Shown in pieces: positions 3,001-23,028 of a DNA stretch of 54,797 nt (position 1 is its first letter; the number at the start of each line of letters is the position of its first letter). This DNA comes from Verrucomicrobiota bacterium (lineage in GTDB: Bacteria; Verrucomicrobiota; Kiritimatiellia; SS1-B-03-39; UBA6053). The translations under genes and the position numbers were made by a program. Location of the stretch: positions 1 to 54,797 of the forward strand of contig JAFIGD010000035.1 in NCBI GenBank assembly GCA_020831625.1. The letters are read 5' to 3'. The notes beneath the pieces were generated by a model that worked only from the letters and a program-made list of their open reading frames with translations, ran no database searches and was not told the origin of the DNA.

Positions 3001-6000
3001 ACACCGACCAGCGAGGCGTGCCCCGTCCGCAGGGTGACAATCCGGATATTGGGGCGTATGAACGGGGACTGAGTCCGCAGGCACTTGACTTCCCGGTGAT
3101 TCCCGAACAGTTGGCTCCCGTTCCGCTGACCTTGTCCGCCACCGCCTCCTCCGGCCTGGAGGTCACGTTCGAGGTTCTGGGCGGTCCGGCCACCCTGGCG
3201 GGCAACACGCTCACTTTTACCGGCGAAGGCTCGGTGCAGGTGCAGGCCACCCAGGCCGGCAATTCCGAGTTTTTGCCCGCCGACCCGGTGGTGCGCTCCT
3301 TCGAGGTGGTGAAGGCAAACGCCACTATTTTTCTCGGCGGGCTGACGCAAACCTTTAATGGTTCACCCAGATCGGTCAACATTACGACAAGTCCCTCGAG
3401 TCTGGATTTTGTAAAAACCTACGACGGACTACCGGATCTTCCCGTCAATGCCGGGACGTATCTTGTTTCGGTTGAAGTGGTGGATGATTTCTATGAAGGC
3501 GTGATCACCGATATTCAATTTACAATTCAGCCCGCCAACCAAACCATCACCTTCGCGGAGATCGATGATCAAATCGTGAATCAATCCATCCCCCTGACCG
3601 CGACGGTGAACTCTGGTTTGGAAATCGTTTACAGTGTAACCGGTCCGGCCAGCTTATCCGGAAGCACCCTCACCGTCACCGGAACGGGTCTCATAGAAGT
3701 GACCGCCACCCAGGAGGGTGATACCAATTGGAATGGGGCTGAACCGGTCACCCGGACGTTCACCGGGCGGGAAACTCCCTCCCTCGTTGTCACCACTGTG
3801 GAGGATGTCGTCGATCCTACCGATGAACAGACCAGTCTGCGGGAGGCGATCACGTATGCTGCCACATTGGACGGACCGCAGACGATCACCTTTTCCAACA
3901 CCGAGGCCAACGGGGCGGTCAATTTCCATGATGGCTCCTTCCGCACCATCACCTTGAATGGGAGCCAGTTGACCGTTTCCAGCGATGTCACGATCGAGGG
4001 ACCGGGGGCGGAATTCCTGGCGATCAGCGGCAATAATCAAAGCCGGGTCATGCGTTTTACGTCAGGGACCACCAGTACCCTCGAGGGGCTGTCCCTTACC
4101 CAGGGTGCCACGGATGGCTCCGGCGGGGGCATTTTCAGTGAGTTGGCCTCGCTTACCCTCACGCGAATGACGATTTTTAACAATCAGGCTGACGATCTAG
4201 GCGGGGGCGTTCACCACTTTAACGGGACGTTGCATGTCAACCAGAGTACAATATCCGGAAATTCCGCCTTTAGGGGGGGCGGGATTCATACCCAATCGGC
4301 TGCGGGTTCGGCGACAGACCCGGCCGGCATCATGATTCGCAACAGCACGATCAGCGGAAACACCGCTACAGATACGGGCGGGGGCGTCCGGAATGTTAGC
4401 GGAGTGATGGAAATCACCCACAGTACCCTTACCTCCAATACCGCTAATTCCGGAGGAGGCGTGTGGTCTTGGAATGACGGTGATACCGCCACCCGGATCG
4501 GTCAATCCATTGTCGCGGGAAATAGCGGAGGAGAATTGGTAGGGTTTTTCACCCTTCAGCGTTATGTCAGCCTGGGTCACAACCTGATTGGTCAGGACGT
4601 TGTGAATGTTGATTTCAACATCGAGTTCAACGAGACCGGCGATCAGACGGGCATTGCCAATCCATTGCTGGGACCGCTGGCCGACAACGGCGGTCCGACC
4701 CTGACCCACGCGCCGCTCGCGGGCAGTCCGGCACTCGGCGCTTCGGTGGTTGTGGGGGGCGTGAACACCGACCAGCGGGGCGTGGCCCGTCCGCAGGGTG
4801 CAGCGCCGGATATCGGTGCGTTTGAGCGGGTGTTGACGGATCAGGAGATCACGAATGTTTCGCTGGTGGCGGGCACCCGGGTCGCGGTGAATTCTTCGGT
4901 GACGTTGAGCGGGACGGCATCCAGCGGCCTGGCGGTTGAATTTGAAAGCCTGACCCCCGACACGGTGGAGATCAGCGGAGACACCGCCACCTTCATCGGC
5001 ACCGGGGATGCCCGGATTCGGTTCAGTCAGCCCGGAGATGCAAGCTGGAATCCAGCCGAGCCGATTGACATCGACGTGATCGTCGGCGGCGAGATCACCG
5101 GAATTTCGCCGGACAAAGCCAACATCGGCGGCGGAATTGAGGCGGTGATTTCGGGCAACGGACTCGGAAACGGCTCGGACATCAGCGAAGTGCTGCTTGC
5201 GGGGGTGCCGGCGGCGATTCTCTCGCAGACCGCCGGTTCGGTGACGGTACGTGTGAATGCCGCCGAAACCGCCGGGGCAGGGGATGTGGTGGTCACATCG
5301 GCTTCGGGCGGAACAATGGTGCTGGAGGACGGCTTCGAATACCTGTTCCTGGCCGCGCCGGAGCAGCTGGATCCGGTTGACATCACTTCCGAAAGCCTGG
5401 TGGCCCGATGGGAACTGGTGCCAGAGGCGGACAACCATCTGCTGGATGTGGGGCTCGATCAGAACTTCGACACCTACCTGCCCGGATTTGAAAAGCTGGA
5501 TGTGGTCAATGCCACCCAGCAACTGATCCCCGGCCTTACGGAAGGGGAATGGTACGCGGTCCGCCTGTTCGCCCGGAATGAACACGGGTTGAGTCTGCCG
5601 TCCCGCACGGTGTGGGTGCCGACCGGAAACAACCTGCCGTTTGTCACCAACCCGCCGACCTCGGGGCCGGTCTCTTCGGGGGCCACCCTGTTCTTCAACC
5701 CGGCGTTTATGTTCCACGGCTCCGGCATGATCTATTCTGTGGCCTCCAGTGATTCGAATGTGGTGGATGCCGCCATAAATGCGAACGGTTTGCTGCGGAT
5801 GGAAATGATGCAGCCGGGTCAGGCGGTGATTACGGTGACCGCCACGGATCCGGACACCGGTTACAGCAGCAGCCACGCGTTCACCATTGATGTGGTGGAC
5901 GATCAGCCGACGGTTGAACGCGACGAATTCCTTCCCCGCGAGCCCTGGAACATGCGGTTCACGCAACAGGTGGAGATCCGGAACACCTCGGGCATGGACG

Positions 6001-6497
6001 CGATCGGGGTGCGGGTATTGTTCTCAGATCTTGCTCCCGGAACCACCGTGGAAAACCGCACCGGCGAGGCCGAGGACGGCCGGCCGATTCTGGACGTGAC
6101 CACCGGCTTCCCGGCGGGGGATGTGCTGACGTTCAACATTGTGTATCTGGCCACCACGGTGTCACCGGAGGCGCAGCCGCCCACCTTGGATTTTGAATAC
6201 ATCCTGACGGATTTCCGGCCGCCACTGCCGGGGGTCGGGACGATGATCACCCGTCAAATCCTGTTGCAGGACGGAACCGGGCGCATGGTGCTGGAGTTTG
6301 AAAGTATTCCCGGAGCCCTGTACGCCATTGAATACATGAATCATTTTCCCGATGGCGATTGGATTGAGGTGCCGCTCCGGCTGCGGGCGGGTGCGAACCG
6401 CACCCAGTGGATCGATGCCGGCCCGCCGGCCACGCTGCCCATGGAGGGTGTGCGGGTCTACCGTGTGAAACAAATGGGTGAAGGAGAAGGACAATGA
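1..6497 (+). CDS. Giant secreted beta-helix/MBG repeat protein, 5'-truncated by the window edge
   Basis: The reading frame is open from the first base, so the N-terminus, including any signal peptide, lies outside. The visible 2,164 residues are modular. A partial right-handed beta-helix domain (about 1-175) ends in a DQRGVARPQG-type motif. CSLREA-like beta-helix modules follow at about 640-1025 and 1258-1612, each opening with a TSLREAI motif and rich in SGN/GGG turns. Between them lie MBG/Ig-like domains with YDG motifs and repeated sandwiches containing a QTLDF/QTITF start. A TIG/IPT domain (about 1696-1781), a fibronectin III-like domain (about 1785-1873) and two further beta domains complete the protein. 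I infer a surface or extracellular adhesin-like protein. No catalytic motif is evident. The next gene overlaps by four bases (ATGA), so the two are probably co-expressed. Confidence 0.85.
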   Translation, partial: VYNDGMLTVINCAFSDNNATFGGGIANDGVTMIVNSTFVENGAFQGGALHSIGNSLLLHITVAGNTADAGESLWIDAGAEVVLNNSIVLGPIEGAFLDTDSNLIGGTFEDAGLETDGSGGLVFQNNWGQTPTIALVAGSPALFAGMPVEGVPADQRGVARPQGFAPDLGAYEAEINADVILGDLTQTFDNTPKAVSVTTDPADLVVRVTYDGSSEAPTDAGSYTVVAVIESDGYFGGATDSLTINKGDQTLDFTAIPDQEPGNTVTLAASAGSGLPVSFAVTSGPGTITEGDQLSFTGEGPVVVTASQGGDDNWNAAEPVSQTIEVREFSQLELVIDLAAQEVYMIGTYTSPEVEYGSDAPGSFRLGFNGNVGGHIIAGAVASSSSPSSDFDELVNDIVVRGSAESLTVRLGEFFSFDATLETARITVTGNGEKRSFAGIPLAEKTFLTTLDGRTLYFQRLINVSSFENIAAAGTIQVIGDKFDQSITFSPEPESEQWINAEVTLEAGADSELPVSFAVTDGPGALNEGNRLSFTGTGDVEVTATQAGNDVWNAAESVVLTFTVTKAPATVTITDLERIFTGGPIEVTVTTVPDSLTVNLTYDGETDAPTAVGSYTVVATIDNPIYEGSATETLTIAEVPSLVVTTLDDVIDPTDGQTSLREAIAHAETLAGPQTITFSDTEAAGAVDFHDGTFRTITLGGTQLTVSSDVTIEGPGADRLAISGNNESRVFEFLSNSTSTLFGLGITEGNSIGTGEGGGILNNGGSLLVDSCRIVGNSASNGGGISTRNGQLVVRDSTLSENTAVTNGGGISIFSGTATILSSTLADNMAESGGGVYTFTLSGGLTSSPATIIRNSTLSGNTADSSFAQRGGGVANFNGVTEITSSTITANTGEGSSGIFSFNDSVTVTRIGQSIVAGNVGPELRGQNTIQRFVSLGHNLIGVAGDNVDFDLDFNETGDQTGITEPLLGPLADNGGPTLTHALLPGSPAIGASVVVAGVDTDQRGVPRPQGDNPDIGAYERGLSPQALDFPVIPEQLAPVPLTLSATASSGLEVTFEVLGGPATLAGNTLTFTGEGSVQVQATQAGNSEFLPADPVVRSFEVVKANATIFLGGLTQTFNGSPRSVNITTSPSSLDFVKTYDGLPDLPVNAGTYLVSVEVVDDFYEGVITDIQFTIQPANQTITFAEIDDQIVNQSIPLTATVNSGLEIVYSVTGPASLSGSTLTVTGTGLIEVTATQEGDTNWNGAEPVTRTFTGRETPSLVVTTVEDVVDPTDEQTSLREAITYAATLDGPQTITFSNTEANGAVNFHDGSFRTITLNGSQLTVSSDVTIEGPGAEFLAISGNNQSRVMRFTSGTTSTLEGLSLTQGATDGSGGGIFSELASLTLTRMTIFNNQADDLGGGVHHFNGTLHVNQSTISGNSAFRGGGIHTQSAAGSATDPAGIMIRNSTISGNTATDTGGGVRNVSGVMEITHSTLTSNTANSGGGVWSWNDGDTATRIGQSIVAGNSGGELVGFFTLQRYVSLGHNLIGQDVVNVDFNIEFNETGDQTGIANPLLGPLADNGGPTLTHAPLAGSPALGASVVVGGVNTDQRGVARPQGAAPDIGAFERVLTDQEITNVSLVAGTRVAVNSSVTLSGTASSGLAVEFESLTPDTVEISGDTATFIGTGDARIRFSQPGDASWNPAEPIDIDVIVGGEITGISPDKANIGGGIEAVISGNGLGNGSDISEVLLAGVPAAILSQTAGSVTVRVNAAETAGAGDVVVTSASGGTMVLEDGFEYLFLAAPEQLDPVDITSESLVARWELVPEADNHLLDVGLDQNFDTYLPGFEKLDVVNATQQLIPGLTEGEWYAVRLFARNEHGLSLPSRTVWVPTGNNLPFVTNPPTSGPVSSGATLFFNPAFMFHGSGMIYSVASSDSNVVDAAINANGLLRMEMMQPGQAVITVTATDPDTGYSSSHAFTIDVVDDQPTVERDEFLPREPWNMRFTQQVEIRNTSGMDAIGVRVLFSDLAPGTTVENRTGEAEDGRPILDVTTGFPAGDVLTFNIVYLATTVSPEAQPPTLDFEYILTDFRPPLPGVGTMITRQILLQDGTGRMVLEFESIPGALYAIEYMNHFPDGDWIEVPLRLRAGANRTQWIDAGPPATLPMEGVRVYRVKQMGEGEGQ

Positions 6498-9667: not shown

Positions 9668-10654
9668 TTACCGAAATCTCGGAGCAATGGGGAGTTCGCT
9701 CCATCCGTTGAGGCTTTCGGTGAGTTCCCGGGCGGTGAAGAGGTAGATGACGGCGCGTTTGTTTTCGAGCCAGTCCATGTCGCGGGCGGCTTTGCGGAAG
9801 AGGCTCATGCGGGGCGGGGTGGAGGCGGAGCCGCGGTTGGCCATGCGGTCGATCGGCAGGGAGAGTTCGAGGGCGAGATGTTCGAGAAAACCGCTGCCGC
9901 GGGCGTGCATGTCGCCGCCGTCGCTGAAGACGTAGGTGTGGCTGTCGCCCAGCAGGAGAATGGGCGAAGATTCCTGGCGGATACTTTCGCCGTCGGTGCG
10001 CTGGACCCGTCGGGCCATGAGGGTTTCGGTCGGATCTCCGGCTTCGGTGAGGTCGCCCTGGAAGGTGATCTCAGCAAAGCCGCCGGATTCCAGTTCGATG
10101 GTGGGAATGTCTTCGAGGTCGGCGACTTCACGGACGCGTTCGGCCACGCGTTCGGCGGCGAATTCGGCGCCGCGCGGGGACCAGTGGGTGTCGGTTTTGC
10201 AGTAGACCTGGGTCATGTGTTGGGCTTCGGCGAAGAAGCTGCGGAGGTCAACGGTGTGAAAGCCCTCCTCCTTAAGCTGAGCGACAAAGGGGGCGGGGCG
10301 CTGCGAGGGAGGAAGCGGTCCGCCGGGGAGCGCGTCGGTTTGAATGGCGGCTTTGGCGGGGACGGGGACGATGATGAGGGGGATGCCGAGTTCGTCGAGC
10401 TGGCTTTTCAGGAGCCGCAGCGCGGGCAGGGGGTCGGCATTGGCTGGTTCAGGCGGCGTGGCGGGATTGATCCAGTCGGTGCCGCGGGCGAGGTGGCGGA
10501 GTTCGGAGGCGAGAAAGAGCCAGCCGTCCTCTCCGGCGATGACCCGGGCTTCGGGATTCGCTTCGAGCAGTTCGCTCGCGCGTGCGGCCAGCGGCTCGTC
10601 GGCGTGTAGGTTGACGGTGAAGAGGGCGGTGAGGAGAAGAAGGGTGTGTTTCAT
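9668..10654 (-). CDS. AlgJ/AlgX-like SGNH polysaccharide O-acetyltransferase
   Basis: 328 residues with a signal peptide (about 1-18, LHA/DE). The SGNH fold of AlgJ/AlgX is supported by GDSH at 236-239 (nucleophile Ser) and DTHW at 155-158 (catalytic Asp/His), plus GEDGWLFLASELRHL near 41-55, typical of these proteins. They move acetyl groups in the periplasm from the MBOAT protein onto an exported polysaccharide. It is the last gene of a three-gene minus-strand operon and overlaps the preceding gene as ATGA. The acetylated polymer is unknown because no polymerase or alginate gene is in the window. Confidence 0.82.
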   Translation of the reverse strand: MKHTLLLLTALFTVNLHADEPLAARASELLEANPEARVIAGEDGWLFLASELRHLARGTDWINPATPPEPANADPLPALRLLKSQLDELGIPLIIVPVPAKAAIQTDALPGGPLPPSQRPAPFVAQLKEEGFHTVDLRSFFAEAQHMTQVYCKTDTHWSPRGAEFAAERVAERVREVADLEDIPTIELESGGFAEITFQGDLTEAGDPTETLMARRVQRTDGESIRQESSPILLLGDSHTYVFSDGGDMHARGSGFLEHLALELSLPIDRMANRGSASTPPRMSLFRKAARDMDWLENKRAVIYLFTARELTESLNGWSELPIAPRFR

Positions 10655-12240
10655 GGCTGATAGCTTTCGATCCAGAAGGGTTCGACGAGTAGAAGATCGG
10701 GGTTGTCGAGCACGCTGACATTGAGCCCCCCGAATTCATCTTCGACATCCATAAAGGGGATAAGGTTCAAAGAAATGACCATGCCGGGGCGGAGGCGGGC
10801 GGCGTCGGTGAGGGTGTGGTTCCGCATGCTGAGGACGCGGGCGACGGTTTGGCCGCCGGTGACGGCGCCGTCCGCGCTTTGGAGATTGGTCAGGTGCAGG
10901 GTGATGACATGATCGGCATAGGGCACCTGTCCGGGGCGGGGGAAACTGCTGATTTCGGCGATGCGGGCGGTGCCGGTGAAAGGCTCAAAGCCGTCGATGA
11001 GCGGGGCGTCGTCCGGGGTTTCGGACGGCGCGGGGCGTTCCCGCGCGGCTTCGGGCAGTTGGATGAGGGACCAGTCGCCGAAACTGAGTTCGCGGGCGGC
11101 GAACTGCCAGACGACGATTTCGATGCCGTCGAGCCGGTTGGTGCCGCGGGCGAGGTCCTGCGCGAGCATCTTGCGGGTGGCGGAGGCTCCCGCGTCGTTT
11201 CGGCGCAGGGCGCGGACGGGTTCGCCGAGGGCGGCGCCGAGGTGTTCGGCGAGTCCGCCGCCCGCGCCCCAGCCCATGCCTTCGAGGCTGAAGATGTTGC
11301 TGAAGCTGTCGCCGAGGAGCAGCACCCGCTCGGGGGCGGCATTCTGTTCCACACGCTGATGGCGGACGGTTTCGGGCGCGATGAGGGTTTGTCCTTCGGG
11401 AAAGGAGAGCATCTCGGCGATGTCGCCGAAGTGGGTGATGTCGGATTCGATGATGTCGTACGGAACCGGATCGCGGGCGGAAAGAATTCCGAGGTCTTGG
11501 AGGCGTTCGGCGGTGAGGCGGGCGGCGGCGGACATGCCTTCGGGGGTCCAGTGGGTGTCGGTTTTCAGGTAGGGCAGTTCGCGGGCGTGCGCGGCGAGAT
11601 CAACCGCCGGGATGCCTTCGGATTCGAGGGCTTCGAGGAAGGGCTGTTCAGAGGGGTTGCGCAGAGGGGGCGAAAGCGGGCGTGCCGAGAGGCTTTCGGG
11701 ATGGATCTGAGGTTTGACGGGCGCGGGAACAACAACCAGGGTGATTCCGCGTTCGGCGAGCTGTTCTGAGAGGTCACGAATGGCGGCGAGAGGGGCTTGG
11801 ACGTCAAACGCGGGGCCGGTGACGTGGTCGATATCGGGCTGAAACAGCATCCAGTCGCCGCGGCCGCGCACGGCCTGTCCGTTGCCGGAGCCGAGCCGCC
11901 AGAGCAGGGGCTGGAGGGTGTCGAGCAGGGCGGGGCGGAACCAGGCATCGTCTTCGAGGTCGTCCTCCCAGTTTTCCATGGCGGTGAGCAGGGCGCGGTT
12001 GGCGCGGAAAAGACGGGTGCCTTCGGCGTCGCGGTTCCAGGCGCGGACGGCGGGTTCGGGGATGCGGCTGAATTCGCGGAGCACTTTGGTTTTCAGAAAA
12101 AGCTGCGCGACGGTGCCGAGGAGGAACAGAACCGCCAGACCGGCAATCAGGGTCCATGCGCCGGCGGGCCGCAGGTCGGTGTGGCCGATTTCGCGTTTGG
12201 CCTGCGCTTCGCGTTCCGGAATGGGGATGGGATGTGCCAT
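10651..12240 (-). CDS. Membrane-anchored AlgX/AlgJ-like SGNH acetyltransferase
   Basis: 529 residues. A cytoplasmic N-terminus of about 30 residues is followed by one membrane helix (about 31-48) and a periplasmic SGNH domain with DTHW (228-231) and GDSFS (310-314). The arrangement of a substrate-like loop (VVVPAPVKPQIHPE) before DTHW matches AlgJ/AlgX. The C-terminal ~150 residues form a beta-rich domain that may bind carbohydrate, as AlgX does, though this is inferred. It lies 11 bases after algI and overlaps the next gene, giving a membrane-tethered plus a soluble transferase in one operon. Confidence 0.82.
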   Translation of the reverse strand: MAHPIPIPEREAQAKREIGHTDLRPAGAWTLIAGLAVLFLLGTVAQLFLKTKVLREFSRIPEPAVRAWNRDAEGTRLFRANRALLTAMENWEDDLEDDAWFRPALLDTLQPLLWRLGSGNGQAVRGRGDWMLFQPDIDHVTGPAFDVQAPLAAIRDLSEQLAERGITLVVVPAPVKPQIHPESLSARPLSPPLRNPSEQPFLEALESEGIPAVDLAAHARELPYLKTDTHWTPEGMSAAARLTAERLQDLGILSARDPVPYDIIESDITHFGDIAEMLSFPEGQTLIAPETVRHQRVEQNAAPERVLLLGDSFSNIFSLEGMGWGAGGGLAEHLGAALGEPVRALRRNDAGASATRKMLAQDLARGTNRLDGIEIVVWQFAARELSFGDWSLIQLPEAARERPAPSETPDDAPLIDGFEPFTGTARIAEISSFPRPGQVPYADHVITLHLTNLQSADGAVTGGQTVARVLSMRNHTLTDAARLRPGMVISLNLIPFMDVEDEFGGLNVSVLDNPDLLLVEPFWIESYQP

Positions 12241-12251
12241 GGGTCGTTTGC

Positions 12252-13688
12252 TTAGAAAATGAAGTAGATGAAGGGGTTGAAGGCCTGAATGGTCATGTAG
12301 CCCGCCGAGGCGAAGAGGGCGAGAAGGGTGAGGGCGATTTTCCAGGCGGGGAGCTTGCGGGTCCAGTCCCAGGTTTGGGGGGCGAACCAGGTGATCAGGG
12401 CGGCGGCGGCCATGCTGAGAAGGAAATAGGGGCTGTAGAGCTGGCCGCCGACAAGGGCGGCGCGGTCGTCACCGCCGCCGCCGAAGAGGGTGGCGACCAT
12501 GCGGAAGGCGTCGCGCACGGTGTTGGCGCGGAAGAAGATCCAGGCGACACAGACGATGAAGAAGGTGACCGTTTTGCCGAGCAGGCGGGGGAGGTTGGGC
12601 TTGAAGGCGCGTTCGAGGGCGAGAAAAACGCCGTGGATGCCGCCCCAGACGACGAAGGTCCAGGCGGCGCCGTGCCAGAGGCCGCCGATGAGCATGACCA
12701 GGGCGAGGTTGATGTAGGTGCGGTGAACGCCGCGCCGGTTGCCGCCGAGGGGGATGTAGAGGTATTCGCGCAGCCAGGTGGAGAGGGAGATGTGCCAGCG
12801 GCGCCAGAATTCGGTGATGGAGGCGGCGTGGTAGGGGGAGTCGAAGTTTTTGGGAAAGACAAAGCCGATCATGAGGCCGAGGCCGATGGCCATGTCGGTG
12901 TAGGCGCTGAAGTCGAAATAGATTTGGAAGGCGTAGGCGAGGGTGCCATACCAGGCGTCGGTTGTGGAGACGGCCCCGGCGTTGAAAACGAGGTCGGCGA
13001 TGTTGCCGGCGGGATTGGCGAGCCAGATTTTCTTGGTCATGCCGAGGGCGAAAAAGGCGACGCCGCGCGCGAATTTCTCCGGAGTGTGGGAGCGGGTGAT
13101 GATCTGGTCGGCGACTTCCTGGAAGCGGATGATGGGTCCGGCCACCAACTGGGGGAAGAGGGAGACGTAGCAGGAGAAATCGACAAATTTTCGGATGGCT
13201 TTGGCTTCGCCGCGGTAGCAGTCGATGGAATAACTCATGGACTGGAAGGTGTAGAAGCTGATGCCCAGGGGGAGGACGACATTGAGGGTGCGTTCGAAGA
13301 GCGGGGCGGCGGCGCCGAAGAGGAGGGCGAGTTCGTTGACGGAGTCGACGAAAAAGTTGAAGTATTTGAAGAAACCGAGAAGGGAGAGGTTGGTGAGAAT
13401 GGAGACGATGAGAGCGGTGCGCTGGGAGCGGGTGCGCGGGGCGCCGATATCGAGGGCTTCGATTTCACCGTTCGGGCCGCGGGCGGGGGCGGCGATGACC
13501 AGACCGCAGATGTAGTCCACCACGGTGGAGAAAAACATGAGAAAGACAAACAGGGGGTTGGCCCAGCCATAGAAAAAGTAGCTGAGGAGGGTCAGGAACA
13601 GCGTCCGCCCTTTGGACGGGCAGGCGTAGTAGCCAAGCAGCACGATCGGCAGAAACCAGAAAAGAAAAAGATGTGAGCTGAAAACCAT
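12252..13688 (-). CDS. algI: MBOAT O-acyltransferase, AlgI type
   Basis: 478 residues, multi-spanning membrane protein, normal AlgI length. Family marks are the N-terminal FSSHLFLFWFLPIVLLGYY, FPQLVAGPIIRF, the EFWRRWHISLSTWLREYLYIPLGGNR block with H299, and GLWHGAAWTFVVWGG with the catalytic His (H339). AlgI-type MBOATs pass acetyl groups across the inner membrane to periplasmic SGNH partners, which here are the next two genes. The gene name marks the family; alginate itself is not implied. First gene of the operon. I see no convincing promoter or Shine-Dalgarno in the ~70 bases upstream. Confidence 0.9.
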   Translation of the reverse strand: MVFSSHLFLFWFLPIVLLGYYACPSKGRTLFLTLLSYFFYGWANPLFVFLMFFSTVVDYICGLVIAAPARGPNGEIEALDIGAPRTRSQRTALIVSILTNLSLLGFFKYFNFFVDSVNELALLFGAAAPLFERTLNVVLPLGISFYTFQSMSYSIDCYRGEAKAIRKFVDFSCYVSLFPQLVAGPIIRFQEVADQIITRSHTPEKFARGVAFFALGMTKKIWLANPAGNIADLVFNAGAVSTTDAWYGTLAYAFQIYFDFSAYTDMAIGLGLMIGFVFPKNFDSPYHAASITEFWRRWHISLSTWLREYLYIPLGGNRRGVHRTYINLALVMLIGGLWHGAAWTFVVWGGIHGVFLALERAFKPNLPRLLGKTVTFFIVCVAWIFFRANTVRDAFRMVATLFGGGGDDRAALVGGQLYSPYFLLSMAAAALITWFAPQTWDWTRKLPAWKIALTLLALFASAGYMTIQAFNPFIYFIF

Positions 13689-14187: not shown

Positions 14188-16449
14188 ATGTTTTTATTAA
14201 GTCCCTTTGCCCGACGTGTTCAGGCCTCCTTTCTGAGCATTCTTTTGTTTGCAGCCACACTGTTCCCATCCGCAGTCATTCTCGCGGCCGAACCCTTTTC
14301 GGAGATGAGCCCGGATCAGCAAATGGAAACAATGGAGGAATTTTTCCGGGCGGCCCGGGCCTACCGGGACACGCTGAGCGGTGAGGGGTACGATCCTGCC
14401 GGGCTGGTGCGCAGGATTGGGAATGATCCTCAAGTCCTTTTGGACTGGGTCATGGAAAATACCGTCGAAGTTCTGTACGAGGGGCGGCTGCGTTCTCCCT
14501 CCGCCGTTATGATGGATGGCACCGGAAATTCTCTGGACCGTGCTGTTTTTCTGGCCAGGCTTTTGGAATTGGGCGGCCATCAGGTTAAGCTGGCCTCCGC
14601 CGAAGTGGAACCGGTCCCGTTCAGCGGCGGTGTCCCTCTTCGTGATGCGTGGCTTCCACCGGTTCAGGCAATTCCTGACGATGCCGAAGACCTCGACGGG
14701 CTGGCCCAACTGAGCGAAATGACCAGCATGTTTGAGCGGCGTATGGAAAGGATTGCCGCACGGATGGACACACAAATCCCCGTTTTGCACGCCTGGCTTG
14801 AGACGGTCGAATCCCCGCGGGAGTCTCCGCGTTTCACGCCGGCCAGGATCTGGTGGGTGGTTGTCGGAAACAACGGCGAAGAGAGGATCCTCAACCCGGC
14901 CGGGGGGGAGGTTCCGAATCCCGACACAGAAGTGCGTGTTGAGGATTTGGATGATGCGCTGTATCAGCGGGTCACGTTTGAAGTCCGGGTTGAACGCCGG
15001 GATGAAAATGGATTTCACACCGAGACCGCACTGGAGCACACGCTGCGTCCGGCGGATTATACCCACGCACATTTTGAGATTGGGCTGATGAGCGACGATT
15101 TAAATTTGAGTTTGGAAAGGATGCGTGAGCTTGAAGACGATTATTTTCATGAAGTCATGCGGCAAATGAAAGAAAGCTCCAACTGGATTCCTTTTCTTGA
15201 AATCGGAAATGATTTGATCATACAGATGGGGTTCGATGACAAAGGTGTTCTGAATGATAATCATTTGCAAAGCGCCACTGGACGGGCGGTCACCCGGGCG
15301 ACCGGTGCGCTGGGGGGCATCGGGCTCAGAGGCGCAGACCGCCGCCCGCAGAGTCTCCTGACCGGAGTGGATCTGGTGTTTCAATGGGAGCATCCGGGCG
15401 GAGAGGTGCGCAGGGAGGTCCGGCGGGTTTACGATGTTTTTCCGGACGACCCGGCCAGGCAACAGTCCCATGCGGAAGGGATGGAACTGAGCGACGAAGA
15501 TAAAATCGTGCGCGGAATGGCCCTGAGCCGTCAGTCCAGCGTGTTAATGCAAACGGGTTTCATGGAGCGTGAATTCTCTTCCGCCCGGCAGCTGGATCAT
15601 CTGCTGGCCAGCCGGCCCGCCATGCTGGGGGCCCTGCATTTTGAAGCCGGAAACAACACGGCTCAAGTCCAGGCCTCGTTGGAAAACTTAAATGTTTTTC
15701 CCGAGGAATTATATGACTGGGCCACCACCCGCGCGGAATTCAATCCCTTCATGAATGAGATTTTTTTAGCAGAGGCGAATCTTGTTGCCTGGCATACGCA
15801 GCCAATGCCTGGTGAGGAGGGGGAAACGTATCTCCGCACCGGTATAGATATTCTCGGCAACCGTTTGAAATCCACGGACGGGGAAACCGAACCGGTGTTT
15901 ATGCAGGGGATGGTGGACGCACTGGTGGAATCTGTGATTGTGGAAATGCGAAATCCGGACATGGTCAGCACCTCCCTGTTAATGGAGCGAACCGGAGCGG
16001 ATGCCTGGATTGCCCTTGGATCGCGCGGGGATCTCGAGGCGCATTCGTTTTCGCCAAGAATTCAGCATCAACTGGTAAAAGCCCTTGAACAGGGTTTGGT
16101 GCTGATGATCCCGGATTCACTGGGCGGTCTCCCGTATGAAGAAACGGCATGGTGGGAACTCAATCCCGAAACCGGAGAAATTATGGGCCGGATCGGAGAG
16201 GAGGGGTGGGGCGGCGGAGCAGCCATGTACGGCGCGAAAGTCGTTCTAATTGGAGCAAAACTGGTTGCCCTTCTGGCCTCAATGTATGTGTGTCATCAAA
16301 ATATGTCCGCTGCATGTTTTATTTGTAACTATGTTGGGGCTCTCCTGCTGGTCTTTGCCGCAATTTCCGGTCCGGGCGCTGCGGTGGGATTGCTGTTCGC
16401 CGGCGTTTACAGGACCGTTGGTTGTGGTCTCGCCATAGGATTGTCCTGA
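14188..16449 (+). CDS. Transglutaminase-like exported protein lacking the catalytic triad
   Basis: 753 residues with a signal peptide (about 1-34). Residues ~75-240 have the order of a transglutaminase-like fold: a helix (QVLLDWVMENTVEVLYEGRLR), the nucleophile helix as GNSLDRAVFLARLLELGG, then IWWVVVGNNG and ILNPAGG. Serine 115 sits where the active-site Cys normally is, the His position reads Ile/Trp, and the Asp of the usual LDP reads Asn. It is therefore probably a binding or scaffold domain. The middle (about 250-660) is helical with no recognised motif. The last ~80 residues are Gly/Ala-rich and hydrophobic, with two or three membrane-like segments and several cysteines. It is followed after 17 bases by the giant VWA gene. 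Confidence 0.75.
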   Translation: MFLLSPFARRVQASFLSILLFAATLFPSAVILAAEPFSEMSPDQQMETMEEFFRAARAYRDTLSGEGYDPAGLVRRIGNDPQVLLDWVMENTVEVLYEGRLRSPSAVMMDGTGNSLDRAVFLARLLELGGHQVKLASAEVEPVPFSGGVPLRDAWLPPVQAIPDDAEDLDGLAQLSEMTSMFERRMERIAARMDTQIPVLHAWLETVESPRESPRFTPARIWWVVVGNNGEERILNPAGGEVPNPDTEVRVEDLDDALYQRVTFEVRVERRDENGFHTETALEHTLRPADYTHAHFEIGLMSDDLNLSLERMRELEDDYFHEVMRQMKESSNWIPFLEIGNDLIIQMGFDDKGVLNDNHLQSATGRAVTRATGALGGIGLRGADRRPQSLLTGVDLVFQWEHPGGEVRREVRRVYDVFPDDPARQQSHAEGMELSDEDKIVRGMALSRQSSVLMQTGFMEREFSSARQLDHLLASRPAMLGALHFEAGNNTAQVQASLENLNVFPEELYDWATTRAEFNPFMNEIFLAEANLVAWHTQPMPGEEGETYLRTGIDILGNRLKSTDGETEPVFMQGMVDALVESVIVEMRNPDMVSTSLLMERTGADAWIALGSRGDLEAHSFSPRIQHQLVKALEQGLVLMIPDSLGGLPYEETAWWELNPETGEIMGRIGEEGWGGGAAMYGAKVVLIGAKLVALLASMYVCHQNMSAACFICNYVGALLLVFAAISGPGAAVGLLFAGVYRTVGCGLAIGLS

Positions 16450-16466
16450 ACGAGGAGGAGATGAAA

Positions 16467-19400
16467 ATGAAAATACTCTTCCCCGCACTTTTCGTTGCCG
16501 CCTGCCTGAACGTTTATGCCGTGCCGCCGCTGGTGGTCACCTCGGATTTAGAAGGGCGTTTGCGTCCCTGCGCTGACTGTCCGGCGGCCACCGGGTATCC
16601 CGGTTTGGCCCGGATTGCCGCCGGGGTTTCGGCTTTGCGCGACCGGCATTCCGATCTTTTATTTGTCGATGCCGGGAATGCGCTGATGGGGAGCGACAGC
16701 ACCGCCAGCCGCGGAGCTTTGGCGGCGGAGTTGCTGATGCGGATTCAGCCGGATGCTCTGAACATCAGTCACCGCGACTTCCGGTTCGGCGCGGAGCGTT
16801 TGCTGGAGGTGCTGGCGGAGAGCAGTCTTCCGGCCGTGTCTGCCAATGTGCGGGCGGCGGATGGAACTCAACTTTTTGAACCGTACCGAATCCTTCGGGA
16901 TACAGTTGTTCTTGGTTTGACCGAAGTTCCCGCCGGTATGGCATTTCTTCCGCATTTAAGACAGCAGTTGGAAGGCGTGGAGATTCTGAATCCGACTGAA
17001 GCTCTCCGGTCTTTGGCACCCGATTTGCCGGGCAGCGGTTCGTTGGTGATCCTTTATTATGGTGGCCGTCCCGGAGCAGAGGCCCTGGCAGCGACGGCAC
17101 TGGAATTGTTTCCGGGACGTGAAATCCGCATGGCGCTGGCGGGTGCGGCCGAGGCGCGGTTTGACGGGGTGGACATGATTCCGGCGGACGTGAGCGGGAA
17201 AACCCTGGCGGTCAGCGGCGGGGCGGAGCCGGTGGAGGTGTCGGATCTTGAGCCGGATCCGGGGATGGCTGCGATGCTGTCAGACCGACTGAAACCCGCC
17301 GCGGATGAACCGGTTGAAGACGCCGCGGATTCAGCGCGGATCGATTTTTCAGCGGAGCGCACCGTGCTGGCGGCACCGGTGCGGGGATCCAACCGCGGAT
17401 TTTCGGCGGCGGTGTTCGGGGTGGAGCGTCCGGCGGATCTGGGGGGACTGTCCCCGGCGGAGGACGCGCAGTGGCTGGTGCTGGATGTGCAAATTGAAAA
17501 TGATCAGGCGATTGATCTGATGCTGGAGCTGGACTACGAGGAGGCGCTGCTGCTGGGGCCGCTGCACCGTCAGTTGTTTGTGGTTGTGAATGGTATCCAC
17601 GCGCGGCCCGCGGCGCGGCCGGAGGGAGATGTCGCGGGATTGTTTCCGAATACCTCGCGTCTGTTGCGGACGGGAGACGCTGTCCGGGGCAGAATTGCAT
17701 TCGAAGTGCCGGAGGGGGAGGTCCATTCGCTTTCGCTGCATTATTATCATGATCTGTTTCCGCCGCTGCAGGTGGACATTGGCGGGGATGTGGCGCGGGA
17801 GGAAACGGACGCGCTGCATCATGGGGTGTCGGAGAATCAGATGGCGGTGTGGGTGACGGGGGTGGAGCGGCTGAATGAGATCGCGGGCGTCCCGGCGCCG
17901 GAGGGAATGGACTGGCTGGCGGTGGATCTTCTCGGCCAAGGCATGCGCATGGATGAGATTGACGCGCTGGCGGTTCAGCGGGGTGCGGACTTGAACGAAA
18001 AGGTCGGGAATGCCCGGGTGACCGATTACTTAAGGGCTGACGGACTCATCCAGCTGGTGGTGGACGGCGGGGATGTGTATGTGCGGGACGAACGGGTGTC
18101 GGTTTTGCCGATGAACCCGACGTTTCTGCCGGATGCGAAAACGGGCGGACGCATGGTGTTTCCGGTGCCGCGGGATGCGAAGGTGCTGGAGCTGGCGCTG
18201 GATTTTCCGGAGTACCGCGGTGCCGCGGGGGCGCGGTTTCCGGACGCGATCCGCTTTGTGCTGGAGGGGGATCCCGAAACGCTGCGTGCCTCTGAGGCGC
18301 TGGCGCGCATCGAGGATGATCCGTTGCCGCTGGAGATTTTGTCGGCGCGCTGGAGGGAGAATCCGGTGTCGCTGGAGGTGGAGGCGCAAATTCGGAATGT
18401 GAGCAACACCGGCGGGATGTATCAGGGGGTGCGGCGGGCGCGGCTGCGGATGCCGGATCAGTCTATTCTCAACGCCACTGCGACCCGTCTTCGCGGCGGG
18501 CTCTCCACGCCGGAAGAAATGTGGCTGCCGCCGGGCGGCGAGCCGCGGCGGATCTGGTTTGTGTTTGAGCCGGAGGAGACGGCGCGGCGGGTGGATTTCC
18601 ATTACAACGGTGTGACCTCCGGGGGGACGGTGCCGCTGGATTTTGAGAACGGAACTGTGAGCGCCTCCGAGGTGGAGGTTGCGGAGGGTGAGGCCGGTGA
18701 AGCTCGGGAGGGACTGGCGCGGGTGACGGAGGCGGAAGAGGAGACGGCGACGGGCGTGCGGACAGAAGTGCACCGTCCGACGCCAAGCCGGCCACCGGTG
18801 GATTTTCCTCTTTCGAAACTGGCGGAAGATCCGGAGGCCGAGCCGCCGGAAAACCCCATCGTTTTGAATTTGACGGGACGAAACGAGCGGATTGAGGTGG
18901 AGATGCCGCACGCGTTTTTGTTTGAGTCCATTCACGGGAGTGCTGTGGAGGACGACAAGCTGATGTTGGGCGTTCAGGTGCGGGTTCAGCGGCGCGGGGA
19001 TACCGATGCGGGAAGGGATGAGCAGTATGTGCAGCGGAACTGGGAAGAGACGATTTTCGCGGTGGATGGCCGGGGATATTTGATTCCGGCGGAGAGGGTG
19101 CGGCGGGATCCGTTGTCGATGTCCGGCGGAATCCGCCTGCAGCGGACGGGTGAACCCGGGGAGGGCTTGCTGTATTTTCCGATCCCGGCAGAGAATCTGG
19201 GTCATGTGGAGTTGCTGTGGATGGACGCGGAATACGGTCACATGCGCTTTCCGGTGTTTCCGGTCGGGGAGACGGTTCCAGAGCCGGATCCGTTGCTTGC
19301 GGGAACGAATCCGGTGGCCTCGGTGCAGGTGCACGGTTTCGGGCCGGCGGAGACATTTGAAGGCCGCGAGGCTTCTGAGGGGCAGTGGCTGGTGCTGGAT

Positions 19401-22136
19401 CTTCGCGGGCGGAATTTGCGGCCTCCGATGGGAAATCATGTGGATGCGGCGCCGTTGTTTCCGCGCGGGTGGAGCGATCGGCTTTTCCTGGTGCTGGACG
19501 GACGTCATATGTTCTCGGTGCCCCTGCGGGGCACCGATCTTCCGGAGAACTGGATGTTTATGCCGCAGCGGCATTCCGGAGGCCGGGTGGCGTTTTCGCT
19601 GCCGGAGGGCGCGTGGGAGGCCGCGCAGTCGGCGGAACTCATCTTCGGTTTCGGCCCGCACACGACCGGTCCCGGCGAACGCCTGCGGGTGCCCGATCTG
19701 ATTCGGATTCCGCTCAAAGGCACGCCCCCGCCGCCGGTGCCGCCGGAGGAGATTCTGGTTGAGGATTCTGATTCTGACCTGAGGATGCGGGTCACCGGTT
19801 TTGATCAGCCGGAACTTGTCCCGGGTTCCCGTTCCGCTTCGATCTGGTTCACGGTGGATTTTGAGTTGGAGGCGCTTCACCCGGAAGGTGTGACCGTGGA
19901 TCCGCAACACCGCTTCCGGCTTTTTTCGGCAAATGGAAACGCATATCGGTTGGCCTATTTGTTTTGGGGAGAGAAAAATCAGATCTCCAGTCGCGGGGAT
20001 CAGTCCCGCTGGCTGCCCCCGGGGGTTTCTCTGCCGCTGCGGATGGTTTGGCGGGTGCCGGCGGAGGAGCAGGCGGATTTACGTTTGCTTCACGCCGGGG
20101 TCTGGACCTATGCGATGCATCCGATTGGTCCGAAAACGGATGATGCAGGCACGGCCGGCTTTGACCCGGCATTTTCGGGTCACGGGATTCGTTTGTGGGA
20201 TCATGGACTGGAGCCCAAGGGGATTGAAGGGGTGGGGTTGACGCCCGAAGAGGTGAACGGAGCGATTGACCGGGGGCGCGAGTTTCTTTGGGAGCGGCTG
20301 CAGAGCAATTATGTAAGACGGGATCGTTTAAGCGGCCGCCGGTTTATGATTATTTCGATCTATGCCCTGGTGAATGTGGATGCTCACCGGATTTATCCTG
20401 AGTTTGACGCGCTGGTCCGGGAGTATCTGCACCGGGTGAATCCGAATGATTTGCAGGTGTATGAGATTGGACTGCTGGCAATGATCATCCGGGCGTACGG
20501 CGACCCGGAGTTTCACGGCAAGCTGGAGCAGGTGGCCCGCTGGCTGGTGGAGGCGCAGGGCGAAGAGGGCACCTGGCATTACAGCGCGGACGTGCCGGAG
20601 CATTTTTTTCCCTCTCTTGCGCTGGAGGAGCCCGAAGCTGCCGGTCCGTTTCAGATTGAAGGCGGTGAGCCGCCCCCCGAGAAGGATGAACGGGATCCGG
20701 AGGATGAAATGCACCGCACGATTTCGTTTCGGCGGGGACAGGACGGCGACAATTCGACCACACAGTTCGCGGTGCTGGGCCTATGGTCGATCGCCCGGGC
20801 GGGGCTGAAGCTCGATCCGGACATTTGGGAGCGGACGCTGATGCGGGCCGCCTTGAATCAGAGTCTGGAGGGCGGCGATGATCTCGGCGGCTTCAGTTAC
20901 CGGGGAATGGCCCGAAGCACCTACGGCTCCATGACGGCGGCGGGGTTAAGCACCATCGCGCTGGCCATGCGGCATCTGGACACCGAGGCGGATGTGCGCC
21001 ATCATCCGCGAATGCTGAACGCGCTCGGCTGGCTGGCGAATCAATTCAGCGTGAGCGATCATCCCGGCCGCACTGGATACAATTATTACTACCTCTACTC
21101 GGTGGAGCGGGTGGGTCAGATTCTCGGAACGGAGTTTATTGGGGAACATGAATGGTATCCTTTGGGGGCGAGGCATTTGGTGGATACCCAGTCCGCGGAC
21201 GGAAGCTGGCCCACGCGCAGCGGGGAGGGCAGCTCGATGCTGACGACCGCGTATGCCCTGTTATTTTTGATCCGGGCGACGCCGGCGATGGACGAGGAGA
21301 TTGTACCGGAACCGGAGCCGGAGGGCCCGGGGCGGCTTACGACCTCCTTCACATCTCCTCCTCCTCCTCCGCGATTGTATTTGATTTTCGACGCGTCCGG
21401 CTCGATGCGGGCTCCGATTGACGGCAAAATGAAGTTTGATATTGCGCGGGACGCTGTTCGCGATTTGGTGGAGGTGCTTCCGGATGGCGTGGAATTCGCG
21501 TTGCGGGTTTACGGGCACCGCCGCAATGCGCTGCACGAAGAGGCAAATTTGGATTCGGCACTGGAGATGCCGTTTACACCATTGGACCGTGAACGGATCA
21601 ATGCAACGCTTGACCGGCTGCGTCCGGTGGGCCGCACCCCGCTGGCGTACAGTCTGGATGAAGCGTTGAAAGATATCGGGGGGGGGCGCGGTCGGGAAAC
21701 GCTGGTGTTGCTGTTGACGGACGGCGGGGACGACACACGCTCTAATCCGGTCGCCTCCGCCCAGGCGTTTGCCGGACTGGACGCGGTGGAGTTTCATATT
21801 TTGGGATTTGATATTAATCGCCCGAACTGGACACGGCAGTTGACGCAAATGGCCGAGGCCGCGGGCGGGCGGTATCAACCGGTCGCCGAGGCGTCGGAAC
21901 TGGCCCGGGATTTGCAGGCGATGGTTTCCCCTCCGGCCCCGACCTTTCAATTACGCGCGGTGTCCGGTGATGTTGTTGCTGAAGGCCGGTTTGGGGAGGA
22001 AATCCCGAATCTTGATCCCGGGGAATATCTGTTGCAAACGCGGTTACCCTCCGGTGTTCAGGAAACCCGGCTCTGGGTGCGTCCCGGGAGGACAACATCG
22101 TTGTCCTTCAACTGGCAGGAGGCTCTTCGTCCATGA
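16467..22136 (+). CDS. Giant exported protein: degenerate metallophosphoesterase, beta modules, alpha/alpha toroid and VWA domain
   Basis: 1,889 residues from ATG 16467, which sits 8 bases after AGGAGG; ATG 16461 is too close to it. A signal peptide (ALFVAACLNVYA) is followed by a region like the calcineurin-type 'EPCGC...GGLARR' phosphoesterases: SDLEGRLRPCADCP, GYPGLARIAAG, VDAGNALMG, then ISHRDFRFG where active enzymes have GNHEF. Most metal ligands are absent. Several related beta-sandwich segments follow (nt ~17,400-20,200) with recurring QWLVLD/DWLAVDL phrases. An alpha/alpha toroid like the terpene-cyclase/prenyltransferase fold spans nt ~20,240-21,290 (GGFSYRG, DTQSADGSWPT). A VWA domain with MIDAS DASGS and LLLTDGGDD occupies nt ~21,365-21,920, then a small beta domain. 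Probably periplasmic or surface-exposed; function unknown. Confidence 0.85.
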   Translation: MKILFPALFVAACLNVYAVPPLVVTSDLEGRLRPCADCPAATGYPGLARIAAGVSALRDRHSDLLFVDAGNALMGSDSTASRGALAAELLMRIQPDALNISHRDFRFGAERLLEVLAESSLPAVSANVRAADGTQLFEPYRILRDTVVLGLTEVPAGMAFLPHLRQQLEGVEILNPTEALRSLAPDLPGSGSLVILYYGGRPGAEALAATALELFPGREIRMALAGAAEARFDGVDMIPADVSGKTLAVSGGAEPVEVSDLEPDPGMAAMLSDRLKPAADEPVEDAADSARIDFSAERTVLAAPVRGSNRGFSAAVFGVERPADLGGLSPAEDAQWLVLDVQIENDQAIDLMLELDYEEALLLGPLHRQLFVVVNGIHARPAARPEGDVAGLFPNTSRLLRTGDAVRGRIAFEVPEGEVHSLSLHYYHDLFPPLQVDIGGDVAREETDALHHGVSENQMAVWVTGVERLNEIAGVPAPEGMDWLAVDLLGQGMRMDEIDALAVQRGADLNEKVGNARVTDYLRADGLIQLVVDGGDVYVRDERVSVLPMNPTFLPDAKTGGRMVFPVPRDAKVLELALDFPEYRGAAGARFPDAIRFVLEGDPETLRASEALARIEDDPLPLEILSARWRENPVSLEVEAQIRNVSNTGGMYQGVRRARLRMPDQSILNATATRLRGGLSTPEEMWLPPGGEPRRIWFVFEPEETARRVDFHYNGVTSGGTVPLDFENGTVSASEVEVAEGEAGEAREGLARVTEAEEETATGVRTEVHRPTPSRPPVDFPLSKLAEDPEAEPPENPIVLNLTGRNERIEVEMPHAFLFESIHGSAVEDDKLMLGVQVRVQRRGDTDAGRDEQYVQRNWEETIFAVDGRGYLIPAERVRRDPLSMSGGIRLQRTGEPGEGLLYFPIPAENLGHVELLWMDAEYGHMRFPVFPVGETVPEPDPLLAGTNPVASVQVHGFGPAETFEGREASEGQWLVLDLRGRNLRPPMGNHVDAAPLFPRGWSDRLFLVLDGRHMFSVPLRGTDLPENWMFMPQRHSGGRVAFSLPEGAWEAAQSAELIFGFGPHTTGPGERLRVPDLIRIPLKGTPPPPVPPEEILVEDSDSDLRMRVTGFDQPELVPGSRSASIWFTVDFELEALHPEGVTVDPQHRFRLFSANGNAYRLAYLFWGEKNQISSRGDQSRWLPPGVSLPLRMVWRVPAEEQADLRLLHAGVWTYAMHPIGPKTDDAGTAGFDPAFSGHGIRLWDHGLEPKGIEGVGLTPEEVNGAIDRGREFLWERLQSNYVRRDRLSGRRFMIISIYALVNVDAHRIYPEFDALVREYLHRVNPNDLQVYEIGLLAMIIRAYGDPEFHGKLEQVARWLVEAQGEEGTWHYSADVPEHFFPSLALEEPEAAGPFQIEGGEPPPEKDERDPEDEMHRTISFRRGQDGDNSTTQFAVLGLWSIARAGLKLDPDIWERTLMRAALNQSLEGGDDLGGFSYRGMARSTYGSMTAAGLSTIALAMRHLDTEADVRHHPRMLNALGWLANQFSVSDHPGRTGYNYYYLYSVERVGQILGTEFIGEHEWYPLGARHLVDTQSADGSWPTRSGEGSSMLTTAYALLFLIRATPAMDEEIVPEPEPEGPGRLTTSFTSPPPPPRLYLIFDASGSMRAPIDGKMKFDIARDAVRDLVEVLPDGVEFALRVYGHRRNALHEEANLDSALEMPFTPLDRERINATLDRLRPVGRTPLAYSLDEALKDIGGGRGRETLVLLLTDGGDDTRSNPVASAQAFAGLDAVEFHILGFDINRPNWTRQLTQMAEAAGGRYQPVAEASELARDLQAMVSPPAPTFQLRAVSGDVVAEGRFGEEIPNLDPGEYLLQTRLPSGVQETRLWVRPGRTTSLSFNWQEALRP

Positions 22137-22183
22137 GGGCGTATTTCGACTTTCCTGAACGCGTGATCTGTTGAGATTACCGC

Positions 22184-22211
22184 TTGACCCCGCAAAGATA
22201 CGCTTTAGTCT
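22184..22211 (+). promoter_or_regulatory. Possible promoter of the CsgG-like gene
   Basis: TTGACC (22184-22189) is followed after 16 bases by TAGTCT (22206-22211), which has the first, second and last bases of a -10 element. It lies about 40 bases before the csgG-like ATG. The -10 is weak, so read-through from the giant VWA gene is also possible. Confidence 0.35.
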
Positions 22212-22251
22212 GTTCCTTAACGCATAACCCAATAAACCCATAGGATTCCAT

Positions 22252-23028
22252 ATGAAAACAAAGACATCATCGCTTCTTGCAGTCTTCGGACTTTCCCTTT
22301 TAGTTGTCGGCTGTCAGGCTCCGGGCCCCACAAGCTCCGCCAGCCAGTCCCAAATGACAAATCAAGTGGGGCAATACCCCGCGCCGCCCTCGGGGATTCA
22401 GCGCGTCCGCGTGGGCGTGCCCATGTTTCAGGTGGACACCCGCCAGGGTGCGGTCGAGGGGATGAATGTGGTGGCGGCGGATCAGGCGACCACCCTGTTG
22501 ATGAACACGGGCCGTTTCGGTGTGATCGAGCGCTCCCAGCTTGAACAGCTTTTGAAGGAGCAGGAACTTGAGGGGATTGTCCGCTGGGACGAGATGGCGG
22601 AGATGGGAGAGGTCCGCGGCGTGGATTATCTGCTGATCGGCCGGGTGACCAGTTTCCGGGTTCAGGCTTCCCAGAGTTCCAGCAACTTCGGAATCGGGCG
22701 CACCCAGATTCCCTTTGGCGGGGCGCTGGGCGCGTTTGATTTCAGCAACCGGAATTCGCGCATTGATGTCGAATGCGGCATTGACCTGCGGCTGGTGGAT
22801 CCCAGCACCGGTGAAATTGTCTCCGCGCAGTTTTCCGAGTACACCCGGACCGACAGCATTGGCGGATTCAATGTTCAGGTGCTCGGGGTTTCAACGGGCG
22901 CGGACGCCAACCTGCAGCTTCAGGAAGGCGATGAGGGACGGATTCTGCGCCTCGCCATTGACGACGCCATTTACAAGATGCTGCCGCAGGTGGACAATTA
23001 TCTGCTGACACGCACTCCGGCGGAATAA
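22252..23028 (+). CDS. CsgG/HfaB-family outer-membrane lipoprotein
   Basis: 258 residues. A lipoprotein signal (LVVGC, Cys21, then Gln-Ala, consistent with outer-membrane sorting) is followed by a CsgG-type domain: RVGVPMFQVDT, ADQATTLLMNTGRFGVIERSQLEQLLKEQELEG, RGVDYLLIGRVTSF, and a C-terminal segment with DDAIYKML. CsgG forms the outer-membrane pore for curli, and relatives serve other surface polymers. No CsgA, CsgE or CsgF is visible nearby, so curli export is not supported. It lies 115 bases after the giant VWA gene on the same strand. A strong hairpin follows the stop. Confidence 0.85.
   Translation: MKTKTSSLLAVFGLSLLVVGCQAPGPTSSASQSQMTNQVGQYPAPPSGIQRVRVGVPMFQVDTRQGAVEGMNVVAADQATTLLMNTGRFGVIERSQLEQLLKEQELEGIVRWDEMAEMGEVRGVDYLLIGRVTSFRVQASQSSSNFGIGRTQIPFGGALGAFDFSNRNSRIDVECGIDLRLVDPSTGEIVSAQFSEYTRTDSIGGFNVQVLGVSTGADANLQLQEGDEGRILRLAIDDAIYKMLPQVDNYLLTRTPAE

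Follow-up and report, generated by a model that had tools for sequence, protein, structure and literature searches.

A conserved gene trio encoding a transglutaminase-like protein, a giant VWA protein and a CsgG-family lipoprotein with degenerate enzyme folds in one order of uncultured PVC-group bacteria

The window analysed here is a whole contig of 54,797 bases from a genome of 4.89 Mb in 111 contigs (completeness 96%), and contains three consecutive plus-strand genes encoding proteins P0001, P0002 and P0003, separated by 17 and 115 bases, respectively (Table 1). The original prediction described them as an exported transglutaminase (TG)-like protein with Ser, Ile/Trp and Asn at the three catalytic positions; a 1,889-residue protein beginning 17 bases later that combines a phosphoesterase-like domain deprived of its metal ligands, beta modules, an alpha/alpha toroid and a VWA domain with an intact MIDAS; and a CsgG-type lipoprotein. 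All of these readings were borne out by the reading frames, alignments and profile searches presented below. A scan for promoters and terminators gave counts at or under the shuffle expectation. Elsewhere in the window, the minus strand carries an alginate-type acetylation cluster (9668-13688), in which one protein looks MBOAT-like on visual inspection, a second has an AlgX domain (PF16822, E 1e-28) and a third is a similar exported protein. The same strand encodes a pair of giant paralogues whose hydrophobic N-termini resemble those of pilins (44107-48777 and 49840-53841), the former without any Pfam match; on the plus strand, positions 3-6497 encode another giant, likely a surface protein, in which MBG_3 and TIG domains were recognized.

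Table 1. Position and basis of the features of the three-gene locus in the window
Feature	Coordinates	Strand	Description and basis
P0001	14188..16449	+	Exported TG-like protein, 753 aa; N-terminal hydrophobic segment 15-33, orthologs
P0001, degenerate transglutaminase-like domain	14395..14922	+	~residues 70-245; domain alignments, PF01841
P0001, triad positions	Ser115 (14530), Ile221 (14848), Asn236 (14893)	+	Alignments
P0001, C-terminal module	16150..16446	+	WWxxNPETG...GWGG, then hydrophobic Cys-containing tail with 2-3 possible membrane segments
Ribosome-binding-site-like AGGAGG ahead of P0002	16453..16458	+	Sequence reading; P0002 ATG at 16467
P0002	16467..22136	+	Giant exported protein, 1,889 aa
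P0002, UshA/5'-nucleotidase-like domain	16530..17216	+	Metal ligands gone; CxxC (PCADCP) retained
P0002, beta block 1	17382..18776	+	Modules M1-M3, ~residues 306-770; profile cross-matches
P0002, beta block 2	19002..20321	+	Modules M4-M6, ~residues 846-1285; tandem copy of block 1
P0002, alpha/alpha toroid	20274..21281	+	Squalene-hopene-cyclase-like type, ~residues 1270-1605
P0002, VWA domain	21363..21926	+	~residues 1633-1820; PF13519, MIDAS motifs present
P0003	22252..23028	+	CsgG-family outer-membrane-type lipoprotein, 258 aa

P0001 by itself had no Pfam or NCBIfam match; its transglutaminase assignment comes from the alignment of the domain, in which 14 of 22 sequences matched Transglut_core (PF01841; best E 1.1e-9). 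Where active transglutaminases carry Cys, His and Asp, P0001 has Ser115, Ile221 (followed by Trp222) and Asn236, and the alignment recovered no intact catalytic set. The degeneracy originally read from this one protein extends across the family for the Cys position, at which each of the nine full-length members has Ser, Gln or His, whereas His and Asp are kept by most of them (HWWV...LDP) and are both gone in the window and in genome G145; thus, the family-wide loss concerns Cys only. The domain shares homology with the N-terminal parts of RHS proteins found throughout the class, where the Cys position is altered too, and the loss of Cys is ancestral and older than the three-gene system. No RHS repeats were detected in P0001 with Pfam. 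Its last 100 residues form a separate conserved module, constituted by the motif and cysteine-bearing tail listed in Table 1 and confined, among 289 genomes of the phylum, to full-length P0001 relatives, except for one marginal match (E 0.0098). No NCBIfam model supported reading the tail as a halocin-like peptide or as another bacteriocin. Profile searches of the PDB with the TG alignment gave no match, viral contigs scanned with the same alignment contained no relatives, and a plasmid search with P0001 was likewise negative; structure prediction from a two-row alignment gave an unusable model (pLDDT 29).

P0002 begins with a region (residues 22-222) similar to 5'-nucleotidases of the UshA/CD73 type, in which only Asp27 remains of the two-metal ligands when compared with intact relatives from the class: DxH has become DxE, GD has become GN, GNHE has become SHRD, and both C-terminal His motifs are gone. 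These ligands are absent in all P0002 relatives, whereas stand-alone nucleotidase relatives elsewhere in the class retain the motifs; furthermore, the C-terminal nucleotidase domain found no Pfam match in P0002 or its relatives. Of the seven sequences aligned, five carry the CxxC motif. In the middle of the protein, a beta block of three modules occurs twice in tandem, as revealed by profile cross-matches pairing M1 with M4, M2 with M5 and M3 with M6, and a single block occurs in one relative (G015 C65). The toroid that follows is homologous to secreted squalene-cyclase-like (SQHop_cyclase-type) proteins, some of them fused to DUF4159, and displays DGDNST where the DxDD of squalene-hopene cyclase aligns, a position at which the related proteins vary. 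At residues 1638-1753 the VWA_2 model (PF13519) was matched with an E-value of 1.4e-6, and the MIDAS motifs are intact (DASGS, GRTPL and TDGG); DxSGS, T and TDG are kept in the five relatives, out of five, that cover this domain.

P0003 matched the CsgG family (PF03783, E 6.4e-21) and has a lipobox ending at Cys21, which is kept in those CsgG relatives whose N-terminus is intact. Compared with E. coli CsgG, its profile match has a probability of 89% at 21% identity, and the segments corresponding to the two barrel hairpins of that protein are both present with comparable or greater length (54 vs 41 residues for the first), unlike LpoB, which stops just past its TGEI motif. The amphipathicity computed for these inserts is a non-discriminating measure, since the inserts of E. 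coli CsgG itself do not stand out in it. Prediction of the P0003 structure from a two-row alignment gave an unusable model (pLDDT 41), the CsgG alignment had no match in a profile search of the PDB, and viral contigs scanned with it held no relatives. Neither CsgE nor CsgF was matched in the genome, the E. coli control being positive, and no curlin-like or small unfolded cargo was found among the linked genes. Within the class, the linked CsgG proteins group as a single clade, separate from the remaining CsgG-like proteins and joined by one decayed relative in G121 (G121:C1:35581-36088; L069, L091) that is interrupted by stop codons in a genome with no TG-like match. C-terminal zinc ribbons, unusual on envelope proteins, were observed in G149, G147 and G152 on CsgG-family proteins that are exported, and in G147 on the giant as well (L097, L101, L095 and L098).

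The system is carried by 7 of the 12 genomes of the order, in which TG-like genes adjoin a P0002 relative at eight of nine loci, and a CsgG gene of the single clade lies beside six of the eight TG-giant pairs. Its position differs: downstream of the pair in the window and in G145, upstream in G149 and G152, and upstream as a tandem duplicate in G015 and G146. A second pair in G015 has no CsgG gene alongside, and G147 contains a pair, an unlinked CsgG gene and a lone TG-like gene (C99; L099 9782-12112) without a giant neighbour. In the order's other five genomes, which are without the pair, a CsgG of the linked clade is missing as well. Several relatives sit at contig ends, and some gene neighbourhoods are therefore incomplete. 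Across the class, for which 288 genomes were searched, full-length P0001 was confined to the order, the nearest named record being PXDP01000306.1 ('PVC group bacterium isolate T3Sed10_339R1'); these genome-by-genome searches covered one phylum, and beyond it one scan of species genomes for close relatives was carried out. Because the trio recurs in related genomes, it is not a chance neighbourhood. Of the conserved order across PVC genomes that the original prediction put forward for testing, the adjacency stood, within one order only and with a variable place for CsgG; the TG-like and giant homologs do adjoin, and the linked CsgG clade has no consistent tie to other genes. In G145, a gene with an N_methyl pilin-type signal (L100 8548-8976; PF07963, E 0.0015, under the Pfam cut-off) lies directly upstream of the TG gene, an arrangement not seen in the window.

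Purifying selection acts on each of the three genes. Against the nearest ortholog, in a single ortholog pair for each estimate, omega was 0.20 for the TG-like gene, 0.18 for the giant and 0.12 for CsgG (138 CsgG codons); within the giant, it was 0.22 for the nucleotidase-like domain, 0.21 for the beta modules, 0.11 for the toroid and 0.12 for the VWA domain, the last two being the most tightly constrained.

With the integration of these findings, we tentatively propose, at a probability of about 0.42, that the trio constitutes a lineage-specific, non-enzymatic scaffold or tether of the cell envelope. P0001 and P0002 would enter through the Sec route, P0001 being held in a membrane by its hydrophobic C-terminal tail while its dead transglutaminase fold may bind peptide segments. 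P0002 would form a long rod with a nucleotidase-like head, two three-module beta blocks and a toroid, whose terminal VWA domain could grip a partner protein via the MIDAS metal; P0003, probably oligomeric, would contact the other two proteins and tether the complex to the outer membrane, acting as an anchor or ring rather than as an export channel. This reading is the simplest since the features that survive are binding features, namely the MIDAS, the tandem beta modules, the toroid, the lipid anchor and the membrane tail, while catalytic sites were lost from folds still under selection: the MIDAS was kept as the TG Cys and the nucleotidase ligands disappeared from all relatives, and the lipobox persists in the CsgG relatives with a preserved N-terminus. 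It is further favoured by the low omega in all three genes (one ortholog pair), by the TG-giant adjacency and its one-clade CsgG companion, by the joint absence of both from the remaining genomes of the order, and by the surface peptide binding earlier suggested for inactive TG domains (PMC3482391); the zinc ribbons shared by CsgG proteins and one giant weakly suggest common contacts. Counting against it are the unlinked CsgG and lone TG gene of G147, and the second G015 pair without CsgG. The original idea that catalytic folds were re-used as binding modules is therefore upheld as regards catalytic loss under selection, with binding itself being what we infer.

The changing position of CsgG, together with the 115 bases that precede P0003 in the window, is what would be expected if the TG-like protein and the giant formed a functional pair and CsgG were an independent envelope lipoprotein placed nearby by chance; we regard this as a credible but rather unlikely account, as the adjacency persists despite the changed position and the linked clade is missing from genomes of the order without the pair. 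Alternatively, P0003 could be a CsgG-type outer-membrane pore for which P0001 and P0002 gate or supply cargo. Its match to E. coli CsgG and its two segments of hairpin length, in contrast to LpoB, agree with such an export machine, which nonetheless seems unlikely to us given a genome without CsgE or CsgF matches, linked genes without curlin-like cargo, inserts whose amphipathicity does not discriminate (nor does that of E. coli CsgG) and a model of low pLDDT. The original proposal of CsgG as an export outlet is thus unproven, its variable position and its unlinked state in one genome adding to the missing partners.

The layout of P0001, in which a signal peptide is followed by a dead TG domain, a long middle part and a motif-led C-terminal module, could be that of polymorphic toxins, its hydrophobic cysteine tail then being a membrane-active effector of a conflict or toxin-like system. 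Homology to RHS N-termini across the class and the separate, conserved character of the tail, with its 2-3 hydrophobic segments, are compatible with this; we nevertheless hold it to be improbable, because RHS repeats are absent, a single tail type is found unswapped among relatives, no conserved small immunity-like gene was found nearby, and neither bacteriocin models nor the defence-system models of PADLOC gave any match. Still less probable is a trans-envelope system not described before, made up of a CsgG-type ring, a dead-fold scaffold bearing a metal-gripping VWA domain, and the dead TG protein, which together would export its membrane-active Cys tail or present it at the surface. Finally, two domains without catalytic residues might indicate pseudogenization; however, apart from truncations at contig edges, seven genomes have open frames, and the selection estimates (omega 0.12-0.22, including the dead nucleotidase domain) contradict decay, which makes this explanation exceedingly unlikely.

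If the trio forms one complex, it would represent a re-use of enzyme folds as structural or binding parts of the bacterial envelope, provide a testable role for inactive TG domains, whose function has been a suggestion since 2012, and extend the CsgG family to a setting without a found CsgE or CsgF partner, albeit within the narrow range of a single order of uncultured PVC-group bacteria. For the combination, of which the original prediction knew no described system, no paper in the library searched mentioned CsgG, von Willebrand and transglutaminase jointly; the degenerate TG kind is known: inactive transglutaminase domains have been reported from RHS polymorphic toxins, with peptide binding at the cell surface as their suggested role (Zhang et al., 2012; PMC3482391). 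The TG domain of P0001 belongs with them, sharing the TG fold after a signal peptide, the lost triad and homologous N-termini, but in place of RHS repeats it is followed by a middle part specific to the lineage and by a hydrophobic tail with cysteines. P0003 shares with the curli channel CsgG of E. coli the Pfam family, the lipobox and both hairpin-length segments, and differs in its low identity, in the missing CsgE and CsgF, and in the zinc ribbon that ends some of its relatives. P0002 resembles UshA/CD73-type nucleotidases, including the UshA-like PCGU protein of NCBIfam NF041198, over its N-terminal region only, lacks their metal ligands and C-terminal domain, and is fused to a giant scaffold; its toroid, homologous to that of secreted squalene-cyclase-like proteins including the DUF4159 fusions, is joined instead to a VWA domain and beta modules.
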